Shown here in pieces: positions 18,470 to 37,510 of a stretch of DNA of 56,176 bases (position 1 is its first letter; each line of letters opens with the position of its first letter). Origin of the DNA: Chitinophaga pinensis (GTDB lineage Bacteria > Bacteroidota > Bacteroidia > UBA4408); assembly GCA_945872355.1 (NCBI GenBank), contig CAMBZU010000012.1, forward strand, positions 1 to 56,176. Direction: 5' to 3'. A program made the translations under genes and the position numbers. The notes under the pieces are model-generated. The model saw only the letters and a list, made by a program, of their open reading frames with translations. It did no database searches and was not told the DNA's origin.

Positions 18470-19231
18470 TTGAAGCATTCTAAACCTACATATTTGTTAG
18501 AGATTTGCTGCTATAGTGCAGATGATGTATATCATGCAGCTGAAGGCGGAGCGCATCGTGTAGAGCTATGTAGTGGCTATGCAGTTGGCGGCACAACGCC
18601 ATCTTTGGGAGTTTTACAGTTGGCTAAAACAATAGTTAATATTCCTATTTATGTCATGATAAGGCCACGAGGCGGAAATTTTACCTACAGCCAAAACGAA
18701 AAAAAAGTGATGCTCAAGGATGCGGCATTGTGTATTGAAAATAATGCTGATGGAATTGTATTTGGCGCATTGAACCAAGATGGTACCCTCGATGAAGAAT
18801 TCTGCAAACAAATGAAAGGCCTCTGCGCAGGCTTACCTATCACCTTTCACAGGGCCATCGATTTATGTGCTAATCCAAAATATGCGCTTGCTTTTTTAAG
18901 TGATTTAGGAGTTCAAACAATATTGACATCTGGCGCTGAATCAACCGCATTGCAAGGCATTGAACAAATTAAAACTTGGCATGAAATGGCAAATGCTAGC
19001 TTGCAAATTATGGCAGGTGCTGGTGTAAATTCAGATAATATTTTACAGTTTGCAAAAATGGGTTTAACCCACTTTCATTCTTCTGCATCTCATATTATAG
19101 GTCACGGAAATATGAATGATAAAATAGCATTCAACGCATCATTAAAAAACCATGAAATATCGGTGGTGAGTAAAGCTAAAGTGGAGGCGATGGTAGAACA
19201 GTTAAACAGTTTTTTTATTAGTAGATGTTGA
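18470..19231 (+). CDS. cutC: CutC family protein
   Basis: CutC is a TIM-barrel protein originally linked to copper homeostasis, although its biochemical role is unsettled. At 253 aa it has the family length, with LEICCYSADDVYHAAEGGAHRVELCS at the start, then VMIRPRGGNFTYS and ITFHRAIDLC, and IMAGAGVNSDNI near the end. No ATG is available at the N-terminus; TTG at 18470 is used. Its end overlaps the GH2 gene by seven bases, so the TPR, cutC and GH2 genes are probably one transcript. Confidence 0.93.
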   Translation: MKHSKPTYLLEICCYSADDVYHAAEGGAHRVELCSGYAVGGTTPSLGVLQLAKTIVNIPIYVMIRPRGGNFTYSQNEKKVMLKDAALCIENNADGIVFGALNQDGTLDEEFCKQMKGLCAGLPITFHRAIDLCANPKYALAFLSDLGVQTILTSGAESTALQGIEQIKTWHEMANASLQIMAGAGVNSDNILQFAKMGLTHFHSSASHIIGHGNMNDKIAFNASLKNHEISVVSKAKVEAMVEQLNSFFISRC

Positions 19232-21558
19232 GATTACTAGCCATTTTATTAGTATTCTCTATTTACTCAACAAGTAATTTTGCCAAAGTTGTTGAACTTG
19301 ATAGCGATTATTGTGATTGGTATTTTTCTATCGGAAAAAATAAAAAACAATACATGGCCATTGTACCAGGCAGCAATATCAATGATTTGATATGCAATAA
19401 AATAATTCCAAATCCATATATTGATAATAATATTTCGCAGCACCAATGGATTGAAGATAGTACTTTTACCTATGTTACAGCATTTGATTTGGAAGTGCGA
19501 AATGAATTTAAGTATGAAATAATTTTTGAAGGATTAGATACTTACGCAGAAGTATACCTCAATAATGAATTGGTAATCAAGGGAAATAATATGTTTGTGA
19601 GCTATCAAAAAGATATTACCAAGCTTTTGCGAGATGGAAGTAATCTCCTAAAAATAGTTTTTAAAAGTGCTATTGAAGTGGGAAAGCAAAAAGCCAAACG
19701 CACCAATATTCATTACCCTGCTGATAATGAAGAAGCAGAAATTAAAGTGAGTCCTTTTGTAAGAAAAGCGGCTTTTCAGTTTGGCTGGGATATTAATCCA
19801 CGCTTAATAAGTTGCGGTATTTGGCGACCAATAAAAATTATTTCGAGTATTAAAAACAATACCAATCAAGAACTAATAATAGCTTCCAAACAAAGTGTTA
19901 AACCATTTTATAAATATAAAGTAGAAAATAATTCACAAGGTGAGTCCTTCGCATTTTACAGCAACCAAAAAAAGGCTGAACAAACTTTTATGTATGGTGC
20001 TAATTATGTACCTTATAATATGTACCCTTTGCCTATAAAGAATTACAAGCGTGTGGCACATATTCAAAAAAATCAAGGTTTGCCTAATCGTCATGATTTA
20101 TATAACCATTTGTTTTCGGAATTAAAAAATTATGGATGCAATATGCTGCGCGTTTGGGGCGGTGGTTGGTATGAAGATGATTATTTTTATGAGTTGGCCG
20201 ACAGCATGCATATTGCCATTTGGCAAGATTTTATGTTTGCCAATACCATGTATCCGGGAGATGAAGATTGGATAAAAACAGTAAAGGAAGAAGTATCGCA
20301 GAATATAACAAGACTTAGTAAGCACCCTTGTATTGTGCTATGGAGTGGGAACAATGAAATTGAAGTGGCTTGGAAAAATTGGGGTTGGCAGGAAAAATAT
20401 CAGTATAGTAAAATTGATAGTTTAAAATTAATTCATGATTATAAATTGCTTTTTGATAGCATTATACCCTTCGAAATAAAAAAACAAAATAGTAAAGTGG
20501 CCTATATTTCTTCAACGCCGATAAGCAATTGGGGCAAGCAAGAAGATTTTTTGAAGGGCGATAATCATTATTGGGGAATTTGGCATGGAGAAGCGCCTTT
20601 GGAGGATTTTAATAATCATGTGCCAAGGTTTGCAAGTGAATATGGCATGCCGTCTTTAGGAATAAATTCAAGTTTGAACTTTTACAATTGCAATAAAGAA
20701 AATAGATTGTTTCAAAATGAAATGATTTGGAATAGAATGAAAAGTTATAAAGGCATGAAGTTGTTAAATCGTTATATCACTGATTACTTGCCAGCTTCAA
20801 TAAGCGACTCCGCTTTAGGTTATGCTAGTAGATATGTACAGTTTAAAGCTTTGAAAACAGCTTATAATGCACATTTATATAATTTTCCATTTTGTTCGGG
20901 CTCTTTATTTTGGCAGTTTAATGAAAGTTGGCCGGGCATTACATGGGCTGCAATTGACTTTAGTGGCCAAAGGAAAATTCCTCCTTATCAATCAAATTAT
21001 GCTTTAGTGGTAGATGAAAAAGGATTGGTAAAATGTAAAAATGTACTTGCTGAGAATAATGTTAAAGCGGTCGATTTAATTGAATTTTGCTTGAAAGACA
21101 TGTCGGGTAAAACGATAAAAAAACATACAATGATGCATGCTAAAAATGACTTGTTGAAAGGCATTGAAATGAATCCTTATTTATATTTTGATTCATTGAC
21201 ATCAAAGGATACATACATTAAAATCTCCTTTAAAAATATTGAATCAAAAAATGATTTAATTGTTTGGGACACGCTGTTATTACTTAAAAAAGAAAAAGAT
21301 TATTCATTAAATAAACCTACAATTATTATTTCAAAAGTGGATGAGCACCATTTAAAAATAAGTTCAAATGAATTGGTAATTGGTTTGCACATTGAAAGCA
21401 AGGCGAATCCTCATTTAAAGTTCGATCAAAATTTTATTACTTTAGAGGCAGGGGAGGAGCGAGTTATTGCAGTGCTTAATGATGAAACTGAATTAGATTT
21501 ATCGAGAATTGTATTTTATTCTCTGTATGATTTGCAGGCAGAAGCGAAAAAAGAATAA
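19225..21558 (+). CDS. Glycoside hydrolase family 2 beta-mannosidase-like enzyme
   Basis: The exported 777-aa enzyme (signal peptide MLRLLAILLVFSIYSTSNFA) should remove terminal beta-mannose. An N-terminal jelly-roll domain ends at GIWRP (198-202). The TIM barrel begins at GANYVP (258-263) and contains LRVWGGGWYEDDYFYELAD, the acid/base Glu in WSGNNE (E378) and the nucleophile Glu in FASEYGMPS (E472). Only about 57 residues separate the first two landmarks, so the immunoglobulin-like domain normally between them is largely missing. The catalytic residues are intact. The hairpin array begins 15 bases after its stop. Confidence 0.88.
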   Translation: MLRLLAILLVFSIYSTSNFAKVVELDSDYCDWYFSIGKNKKQYMAIVPGSNINDLICNKIIPNPYIDNNISQHQWIEDSTFTYVTAFDLEVRNEFKYEIIFEGLDTYAEVYLNNELVIKGNNMFVSYQKDITKLLRDGSNLLKIVFKSAIEVGKQKAKRTNIHYPADNEEAEIKVSPFVRKAAFQFGWDINPRLISCGIWRPIKIISSIKNNTNQELIIASKQSVKPFYKYKVENNSQGESFAFYSNQKKAEQTFMYGANYVPYNMYPLPIKNYKRVAHIQKNQGLPNRHDLYNHLFSELKNYGCNMLRVWGGGWYEDDYFYELADSMHIAIWQDFMFANTMYPGDEDWIKTVKEEVSQNITRLSKHPCIVLWSGNNEIEVAWKNWGWQEKYQYSKIDSLKLIHDYKLLFDSIIPFEIKKQNSKVAYISSTPISNWGKQEDFLKGDNHYWGIWHGEAPLEDFNNHVPRFASEYGMPSLGINSSLNFYNCNKENRLFQNEMIWNRMKSYKGMKLLNRYITDYLPASISDSALGYASRYVQFKALKTAYNAHLYNFPFCSGSLFWQFNESWPGITWAAIDFSGQRKIPPYQSNYALVVDEKGLVKCKNVLAENNVKAVDLIEFCLKDMSGKTIKKHTMMHAKNDLLKGIEMNPYLYFDSLTSKDTYIKISFKNIESKNDLIVWDTLLLLKKEKDYSLNKPTIIISKVDEHHLKISSNELVIGLHIESKANPHLKFDQNFITLEAGEERVIAVLNDETELDLSRIVFYSLYDLQAEAKKE

Positions 21559-21573
21559 GAGTTTCTATTGTCT

Positions 21574-22267
21574 TTCAGGAGGAATCTTTTTGTGTTGTTG
21601 CTAAAAAGTATACAATAGGCGCTGGACCTTTTGCGGGCATAAAAGATGGAATGTGAATTTTACCTGCTTGTATTCTTTAACAAGTTTCCTCCTGAATGAC
21701 ACGCTATTATTGTCTTTCAGGAGGAATCTTTTTGTGTTGTTGCTAAAAAGTATAAAATAGGCGCTGGACTTTTTGCGGGCATAAAAGATGGAATGTGAGT
21801 TTTACCTGCTTCGTTTATTTTAACAAGTTTCCTCCTGAATGACATGCTATTATTGTATTTCAGGAGGAATCTTTTTGTGTTGTTGCTAAAAAGTATACAA
21901 TAGGCGCTGGACCTTTTGCGGGCATAAAAGATGGAATGTGAGTTTTACCTGCTTGTTTACTTTAACAAGTTTCCTCCTGAATGACATGCTATTATTGTCT
22001 TTCAGGAGGAATCTTTTTGTGTTATTGCTAAAAAGTATAAAATAGGCGCTGGACCTTTTGCGGGCATAAAAGATTAAATGTGAATTTTACCTGCTTCGTT
22101 TATTTTAACAAGTTTCTTCCTGAATGACATGCTATTATTGTCTTTCAGGAGGAATCTTTTTGTGTTATTGCTAAAAAGTATACAATAGGCGATGGACCTT
22201 TTGCGGGCATAAAAGATGGAATGTGAGTTTTACCTGCTTCGTTTATTTTAACAAGTTTCCACCTGAA
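21574..22267. repeat. Five-copy tandem array of about 142-bp hairpin units
   Basis: Units start at 21574, 21716, 21859, 22001 and 22144 (spacing 142, 143, 142, 143). Each opens with TTCAGGAGGAA and closes with TTCCTCCTGAA, or a one-base variant, 123-124 bases later; the two arms are perfect complements in units 1-3. Interiors are highly conserved. Unit 4's arm change keeps G-U pairing in RNA; unit 5's change breaks one pair. Each left arm contains AGGAGG and each right arm CCTCCT. The remainder of 21559-22387 holds a small hairpin (22285-22299) and the promoter of the next gene. Confidence 0.92.
21844..21903 (+). other. 19-codon micro-ORF in hairpin unit 3
   Basis: An ATG frame reads MLLLYFRRNLFVLLLKSIQ and then stops. 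It begins in the spacer after the previous hairpin's right arm and runs through the left arm, where AGGAGG encodes the Arg pair. Equivalent frames occur in units 4 (21986-22045) and 5 (22129-22188). The peptide would be hydrophobic and cationic. Nothing shows that it is translated; the length is within chance. Confidence 0.15.
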
Positions 22268-22356
22268 TGAAGCTTACGTTTCTTCAAAATGACATTTTGC
22301 TTTTTGGTATGATTTAAACACGCATTTTGTTAAACAATCATTTTAATTAAAAAACT

Positions 22357-22364
22357 TATCTTTG
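22357..22364 (+). promoter_or_regulatory. -7 element for the ABC-F gene
   Basis: TATCTTTG matches TAnnTTTG and lies 23 bases before the ATG at 22388. No TTTG stands at the usual distance upstream. Confidence 0.6.
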
Positions 22365-22387: not shown

Positions 22388-23998
22388 ATGATTAGTACTG
22401 CTAATGTAGGTTTACAATATGGTAAACGTGTGTTATTCGAAAAAGTAAGCATTAAGTTTAATCCAGGTAATTGCTATGGAATTATTGGTGCAAATGGAGC
22501 TGGAAAATCTACTTTCCTTAAAATTCTTTCAGGTGAAATCGAACCACAGCAAGGTCAAGTTATTGTTGATACAGGTGAAAGAATTTCTGTTTTAAGTCAG
22601 AATCAAAATGCTTTTGACGCCTACACTGTTATCCAAGCTGTGATTATGGGTAACAAAAGGTTATCAGATATCATGATAGAGAAAGATGCCATTTACGCAA
22701 AGGCAGACTTTAATGATGAAGATGGCATTCGGGTTTCCGAATTAGAAGGTGAATTTGCTGAATTGAATGGTTGGAATGCAGAAACAGAAGCCGCTGAGCT
22801 GTTAGAAGGTTTAGGTATATTTACTGATGAACATCAAAAGTTAATGAGTGAAATAGGTGGTTCTGAAAAAGTTAGGGTATTGTTAGCGCAGGCTTTATTT
22901 GGGAATCCTGACATTTTATTGTTAGATGAGCCCACCAATAATTTGGATGCCTCAACTGTATTGTGGTTAGAAGATTTTTTAGCAGAATTTCAAAATACCG
23001 TAATTGTTGTATCACATGATAGGCATTTTATGGATGCAGTTTGCACCCATATTGCAGATATTGATTTTTCACAAATTCAATTGTTTACCGGTAACTATTC
23101 GTTTTGGTATGAAAGTAGTCAGTTAATGCTCCGTCAAAAGCAAGATGCGAACAGAAAGGCTGATGATAAAAAGAAAGAATTGCAAGATTTTATTGCACGT
23201 TTTAGCGCTAATGCCTCTAAATCGCGCCAAGCCACTTCAAGAAAAAAGCTATTAGATAAATTGGTGTTCGAGGATATGAGGCCTTCATCAAGAAAGTATC
23301 CATATATAGTTTTTAAACCAAAAGCTGATACAAGAAATCAAATATTGGAAGTAAAAGGCTTGCGCAAGGCTTTTGATGGCTTAGATTTGTTTAAGAATAT
23401 GAACTTTACAGTGGATAGCGGCGATAAAATTGCTTTTTTAAGTAGTGATGGTTTAACTGTTTCTGCCTTGTTTGATATATTAACTGAAGAAAAACCTTTT
23501 GATCACGGAGAGTTTAAATGGGGCGCAACAGCTCAAATAGGTTATTTTCCAAGGGTAAATGACCATTTTTTTACAGGAGATTTAAGAATAATTGATTGGT
23601 TACAACAATACTCAGAGGTAAAAGAAGAGCCTTGGATTAGAAGTTTTTTAGGCAAAATGCTATTCTCAGGTGAAGAATCCTTAAAGAAAACTAAAGTGCT
23701 TTCTGGAGGCGAAAAAGTAAGATGTTTAATTGCAAAGTTAATGCTTGAAGCGCCTAATACACTTATTCTTGATCAACCTACCAACCATTTAGATTTGGAA
23801 GCAATAACATCTTTAAACGATGGTTTGAAAACATTTACAGGAAATTTATTGTTTAGCTCACATGACCATTTATTTGTAGAGACTGTGGCCAATAGAATAG
23901 TTGAAATATTGCCTGGTGGAATTATTGACAGGCGCATGACTTATGATGAATATTTGAGAGATGAAAAAGTAAAAGTGCTAAGAAATTCTCTTCAATAA
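22388..23998 (+). CDS. ABC-F family ATPase (YbiT/EttA-like)
   Basis: ABC-F proteins have two fused ATPase domains, lack membrane segments and act on ribosomes. The first domain is complete: Walker A GANGAGKST (about 36), signature GGSEKVR and Walker B DILLLDEPTNNLD. The second domain keeps its signature (LSGGEKVR), but its Walker A position reads SSDGLTVSALF and its Walker B reads TLILDQPTNHLD, with Gln in place of the catalytic Glu. A linker rich in Lys, Arg and Asp lies between them (about 245-310). 536 aa is normal for the YbiT-like subgroup. It may regulate or rescue translation; no antibiotic resistance role is indicated. Confidence 0.9.
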   Translation: MISTANVGLQYGKRVLFEKVSIKFNPGNCYGIIGANGAGKSTFLKILSGEIEPQQGQVIVDTGERISVLSQNQNAFDAYTVIQAVIMGNKRLSDIMIEKDAIYAKADFNDEDGIRVSELEGEFAELNGWNAETEAAELLEGLGIFTDEHQKLMSEIGGSEKVRVLLAQALFGNPDILLLDEPTNNLDASTVLWLEDFLAEFQNTVIVVSHDRHFMDAVCTHIADIDFSQIQLFTGNYSFWYESSQLMLRQKQDANRKADDKKKELQDFIARFSANASKSRQATSRKKLLDKLVFEDMRPSSRKYPYIVFKPKADTRNQILEVKGLRKAFDGLDLFKNMNFTVDSGDKIAFLSSDGLTVSALFDILTEEKPFDHGEFKWGATAQIGYFPRVNDHFFTGDLRIIDWLQQYSEVKEEPWIRSFLGKMLFSGEESLKKTKVLSGGEKVRCLIAKLMLEAPNTLILDQPTNHLDLEAITSLNDGLKTFTGNLLFSSHDHLFVETVANRIVEILPGGIIDRRMTYDEYLRDEKVKVLRNSLQ

Positions 23999-37330: not shown

Positions 37331-37510
37331 GATAGTTTTGAACGGGTTTTTGTTGATGAAAAAGACTTGTTAGGTGAGGGGACGTTTTGGTTGGCGGGGA
37401 CGCCAAGCAAGGACAATGACTCATGATAGTTTTGAAGGGTTTTTTGTTGATGAAAAAGACTTGTTAGGTGAGAGTACGTTTTGTTTGGCGGGGACGCCAA
37501 GCAAGGACAA
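37331..37510. repeat. Direct repeat pair with internal hairpin
   Basis: Copies at 37331-37416 and 37425-37510 (86 bp each, spacing 94) differ at about five positions. Each ends with the GC-rich hairpin TTGGCG-GGGA-CGCCAA and then GCAAGGACAA. They lie between the start of parC and the end of moaE. 37511-37643 shows nothing else. Confidence 0.85.

Follow-up and report, generated by a model that had tools for sequence, protein, structure and literature searches.

An intergenic array of five tandem units is best explained as a cluster of a miniature, non-autonomous and non-coding palindromic repeat of about 135 bp, ‘REPIN-like’ or ‘MITE-like’ in its organisation, and a probability of roughly 0.88 is assigned to this explanation. 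The array lies in a stretch of 56,176 nucleotides (the whole of the DNA that was analysed, termed ‘the window’ below). The original prediction made for this DNA had held an amplified palindromic repeat without a product only as its fallback; it is that fallback which is now supported, by the existence of a dispersed family of copies and by the arms that those copies share. A striking-looking array is in this way explained as ordinary mobile repeat DNA.

Organisation and setting of the array

The array (21566-22278) comprises five units of 142-143 bp each, arranged head to tail and joined by linkers of 9 bp, and it begins 8 bp past the stop codon of an upstream gene that resembles glycoside hydrolases. 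Its parts, its neighbours and one example of the hairpins predicted at its junctions are as follows.

19225-21558, + strand: upstream gene, glycoside-hydrolase-like, 777 aa (read from sequence)
21569-21701, + strand: unit 1, with left arm TGTCTTTCAGGAGGAATC, spacer and right arm GTTTCCTCCTGAATGACA
21684-21728, + strand: example of a predicted junction hairpin, a right arm and the next unit’s left arm around a 9-nt loop, then TTTTT (-21.9 kcal/mol, z -6.7)
21702-21710, no strand: linker between units 1 and 2, CGCTATTAT
21711-21844, + strand: unit 2
21845-21853, no strand: linker between units 2 and 3, TGCTATTAT
21854-21986, + strand: unit 3, with left arm beginning TGTATTTC
21987-21995, no strand: linker between units 3 and 4, TGCTATTAT
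21996-22129, + strand: unit 4, with a C-to-T change in the right arm (G-U pairing kept) and the variant of a second reading frame that stops after KD
22130-22138, no strand: linker between units 4 and 5, TGCTATTAT
22139-22272, + strand: unit 5, with a degraded right arm, GTTTCCACCTGAATGAAG, and one broken pair
22357-22364, + strand: TATCTTTG, candidate Bacteroidota-type -7 box of the downstream ABC-F gene, outside the array
22388-23998, + strand: downstream gene, ABC-F type ATPase, 536 aa (read from sequence)

The repeat finder TRF reports a period of 143 bp at 21566-22270 (4.9 copies, 94% match, score 1270), together with a dimer period of 285 bp at 95%, and the spacing from arm to arm, measured on the inner arms, runs 142, 143, 142 and 143 bp. 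The array is far above chance expectation, and both measures bear out the five near-identical units of 142-143 bp that had originally been described. Within the array the arms are 94% identical and the spacers 95%; a CRISPR array, with its short conserved repeats and unique spacers, is therefore not what is present here, in agreement with the original description of these units as unlike a CRISPR.

The full arms are 18 bp long and form an imperfect inverted pair (TGTCTTTCAGGAGGAATC on the left and GTTTCCTCCTGAATGACA on the right), with two T-T mismatches between them. A stem of 11 bp had been thought to close every unit. The arm in fact extends further than this (TGTC.TTCAGGAGGAA.C), and the exact 11-bp pair, TTCAGGAGGAA/TTCCTCCTGAA, is found only in units 1-3. 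The C-to-T substitution in the right arm of unit 4 leaves a G-U pair in place, and a T-to-A substitution in the right arm of unit 5 (CCACCT), which the earlier description omitted, creates an A-A mismatch at the cost of one pair.

The differences among the units also bear on how the array may have grown. Columns 48, 105 and 111 alternate between units 1 and 3 and units 2 and 4, matching the 285-bp dimer period, and units 4 and 5 go together at column 32, which points to a history with more than one exchange. The five units would have come about when copies recombined unequally or replication slipped between them, at least once by way of a two-unit block. Because the units differ from each other they are not a simple assembly duplicate, and for a tandem repeat of 143 bp the exact number of units is uncertain in the source assembly, a draft of 133 contigs. 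Directly after unit 5, at 22279-22294, the sequence TTTCTTCAAAATGACA looks like a degenerate right arm; its covariance-model score is weak, leaving its status as a remnant unsupported.

In one congener (G001) the same two genes are found in the same order on either side of a short intergenic stretch, with the array absent and the TATCTTTG box of the ABC-F gene also kept. In another (G003) the glycoside-hydrolase-like and ABC-F genes are located apart.

A dispersed family in the same genome

The arm pattern, searched with up to two mismatches, has 39 matches in the genome from which the window was taken, against 1 in a reversed control, and a BLAST-type search of the same genome yielded 22 matches, several of which, outside the window, span unit ends only. 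A covariance model (R1), built from 11 full copies, recovers all five units and about 16-18 other elements, full or truncated. These others are distributed over nine contigs (C14, C18, C23, C31, C32, C38, C57, C76 and C92) at about 11 places besides the array, which brings the total, array included, to about 21-23 elements; at the loci where flanking ORFs were listed, the dispersed elements are intergenic. Seven tandem junctions outside the window display the same geometry, with a linker of 9-10 bp that is usually CCGTTTTTT or a near variant, so that members of the family are habitually arranged in tandem. In some of its arrays the sequence breaks off inside a spacer.

Between the array and the dispersed copies the arms are 95% identical and the spacers 55%, a comparison made with six full dispersed copies that were chosen for their good arms and in which arm identity is accordingly inflated; degraded copies (for example, those on C23, C57 and C92) have weaker arms. 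Considered together with the identities inside the array, this pattern fits a mobile element whose ends would be what counts from locus to locus, with later duplication of whole units in the array itself.

Two further repeats were encountered beside members of the family. Truncated copies at three loci (L010, L013 and L020) continue into a common sequence that reaches the palindrome CGAGTCTGAAGACTCGCGCC, which suggests nested or recombined repeat families. The other, with TATACCAATTGCATTTATTTTTTAG and GGACTAAATTGAAAGTGTAATCGGTATTA, was noted at L007, L009, L012, L020, L084 and L125; it adjoins several copies of the arm family as well as a RAYT-like gene, and is probably a separate miniature element.

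Outside this genome, 20 relatives were searched with the covariance model (E <= 0.01) without a match; three of these belong to the same genus, and in none of the three does the arm pattern occur. The exact junction pattern is likewise absent from the genome_contigs and viral_contigs collections (from which the window’s own record was possibly left out), a blastn search against plasmids and phages had no matches, and Rfam has no family at the array, its only match in the window being a tRNA elsewhere. The nearest named relative is the Bacteroidota MAG KLAP123.

RNA structure and coding potential

The arms hold AGGAGG and CCTCCT, and the original prediction accordingly read the array, first and foremost, as a structured RNA in which a Shine-Dalgarno (SD)/anti-SD stem would hide or expose a ribosome-binding sequence. 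A single unit does fold better than its shuffles (z -4.1), and the junction hairpin listed above does so by a wider margin; folding of this kind is expected of any inverted repeat. The comparison of copies, however, speaks against this reading. Among the 16 pairs of the arm helix, examined across 11 distinct sequences, nine are invariant, in two one side varies without loss of pairing, and each of the remaining five is lost in a single copy; there are no compensatory changes. The substitution in unit 4, which does keep its G-U pair, had been taken to favour an RNA structure mildly. The search of relatives, which had been proposed along with the SD reading, was unfavourable too, since none of the 20 relatives searched has a copy and the family is thus seen in one genome only.

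In the predicted fold of a full array transcript, moreover, the left arms of units 2-5 pair with the right arm of the preceding unit, with a pairing probability of 0.99 at all four junctions, and these junction hairpins dominate over the within-unit stem on which the SD reading depends. AGGAGG/CCTCCT is a portion of the arm common to the dispersed copies, and the start codons of the neighbouring genes are not near any arm. Finally, recognition of SD sequences is reported to fail in the ribosomes of Bacteroidia, because their 16S tail is sequestered (PMC9976891), and these ribosomes are likewise reported not to use SD (PMC8710568). A search of the 133-contig draft for the 3' end of this genome’s own 16S rRNA did not find it, so that this argument is made at the level of the class. 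An SD switch is, on all of these grounds, highly improbable, and AGGAGG/CCTCCT stems in Bacteroidota should not be taken for ribosome switches.

The same junctions raise another question, namely whether the array is a transcription terminator or an mRNA 3'-end stabiliser, kept by selection between the two genes. The four junction hairpins have predicted energies of -20 to -23 kcal/mol and each is followed by TTTTT, and the array starts almost immediately behind the upstream stop codon. They were nevertheless not flagged by a terminator scan, which allows loops of up to 8 nt as against the 9-nt junction loops; solo elements have no junction at all; the congener G001 has the gene pair without the array; and within the array arms and spacers are equally conserved. 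A function maintained by selection is thus quite unlikely, although the hairpins with their T5 tracts could act as weak terminators or as stabilisers of mRNA 3' ends. The mobile-repeat explanation can be extended into a single composite account, in which a TGTC-tagged family, found in one species among those searched and mobilised by an enzyme, was recently amplified in tandem and in its tandem form came secondarily to serve as a multi-hairpin transcript end; taken as a whole, that account is doubtful.

The reading frames noted originally are present as claimed. Units 3, 4 and 5 each have an ATG frame of 19 codons, whose ATG is located at the unit border and is supplied by the linker, and the second frame, KKY(T/K)IGAG..., stops after KD in unit 4. 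The further proposal, that these ‘micro-ORFs’ encode small hydrophobic and cationic peptides (MLLLSFRRNLFVLLLKSI[QK]), can be given next to no credence. A start is present in three of the five units (unit 2 has ACG in place of ATG, and unit 1 is without the linker ATG), and the dispersed tandem copies lack it, since CCGTTTTTT-type linkers join them. Inspection at the codon level reveals differences that mostly change amino acids: in the 19-codon frame S/Y and Q/K are nonsynonymous and one Leu change is silent (2:1), and in the second frame T/K, A/D, P/L and the stop in unit 4 all alter the product. Judged by these differences among the units, neither frame shows any sign of coding constraint.

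Relationship to known repeats and candidate mobilisers

As genomic repeats go, the array family is ordinary, and tandem REPIN clusters of this size have already been published. In P. fluorescens SBW25, near-identical REPINs together with their flanks form tandem clusters, the largest of which consists of four REPINs and one REP and exceeds 700 bp (PMC3116915). The elements described here resemble those REPINs in that their two inverted ends are conserved and the spacer between them is less so (in copies chosen by their arms), in being intergenic and dispersed, and in forming tandem near-identical clusters of similar total size (>700 bp). They differ in number, with about 20 elements in a draft assembly as compared with hundreds, in lacking a RAYT gene with these arms on its flanks, and in the arm itself, which taken alone is barely palindromic and makes a poor hairpin formed by the TTC/GAA core only (3-bp stem, 5-nt loop, TTC-AGGAG-GAA).

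A second comparison is with the CGTC/TGTC-tagged REPs, which occur as inverted dimers, count Bacteroidetes among their phyla and are said to have no dedicated transposase (PMC3733652). The array family shares with them the inverted-dimer form and a TGTC tag, placed outermost in each arm and followed by ATTC or TTTC, and its Y1_Tnp matches, none of which is flanked by the arms, recall that published statement; its 3-bp arm stem is unlike their stems of 8-9 bp, which enclose a loop of 4-5 nt and mostly carry a CCA-like tail. A third is with BrickBuilt of Porphyromonas gingivalis, a MITE that is intergenic, restricted to its species and internally repeated in tandem, with 19 copies in one strain (PMC4596501), which is similar in its restriction to a species, intergenic location, inverted ends, tandem repetition and copy number (about 20 here), and dissimilar in that a 23-bp unit is repeated inside one element, whereas in the present family repetition involves the entire 143-bp element. 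Since two features of REPINs (the cognate RAYT with the same flanking REP, and the high copy number) and the stem length of the CGTC REPs are wanting, the family is called REPIN-like or MITE-like and is not filed as a member of either class.

According to the mechanism that we favour, the element would have entered the intergenic region and been moved in trans by a transposase recognising the arms in single-stranded form or as a terminal structure; the leading candidate for this putative enzyme is of the HUH/Y1 class, RAYT type. Its movement is placed in the past, with the order of events being the one that we infer. No target-site duplication is visible at the copies, and the intergenic DNA of the congeners is too diverged for empty sites to be aligned precisely.

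The principal competitor is a MITE derived from a DDE-type insertion sequence, which would possess true terminal inverted repeats and a target-site duplication and would owe nothing to an HUH enzyme. The copies are indeed short and non-coding with terminal inverted repeats, and arm length, element length and the absence of coding all suit a MITE; at the same time, the arm list of the 133-contig draft reveals no parent insertion sequence sharing the ends, with no facing arm pair 0.7-3 kb apart around a gene, and the expected duplication is not visible. Multi-copy insertion sequences are often lost from draft assemblies, so that the parent may be missing from this one, and a DDE-type origin is for that reason regarded as a minority possibility of appreciable weight.

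For the preferred REPIN-type origin, the potential mobilisers are the Y1_Tnp (PF01797) matches, of which there are ten in this genome versus two or three in each congener. None of the ten is flanked by exact arms, and in the absence of such a RAYT gene the family is REPIN-like and not a proven REPIN. A weak lead is provided by a Y1_Tnp-like pseudogene (L088), about 0.4 kb downstream of which lies an arm with two mismatches. Counting this one, four near-identical genes or pseudogenes of the RAYT-like (Y1_Tnp) kind (L085, L086, L087 and L088, on contigs C117, C8, C2 and C3) have on their flanks the repeated palindromes GAGCGTAGTTCGGAAACTACGCTC and CAGCGTAGTTTTCAACTACGCTG, which are partly in tandem; as read from their sequences, they and their palindromes are a REP/RAYT-like system distinct from the family of the array. 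They were rejected as its cognate RAYT on account of their own, different flanking palindrome, GAGCGTAGTTCGGAAACTACGCTC. Should the family still move, it could help to find the mobiliser of the TGTC-tagged repeats, which published work has left without a transposase.

Two smaller repeats were also observed in the window. At the contig edge (1-244) there is a second tandem array, with a 97-bp unit in 2.5 copies, whose TGCTTCGCTTTGCTCAGCA motif is also found beside the RAYT-like gene in L085, and at 37331-37510 a 94-bp sequence containing TTGGCGGGGACGCCAAGCAAGGACAA is present in 1.9 copies.
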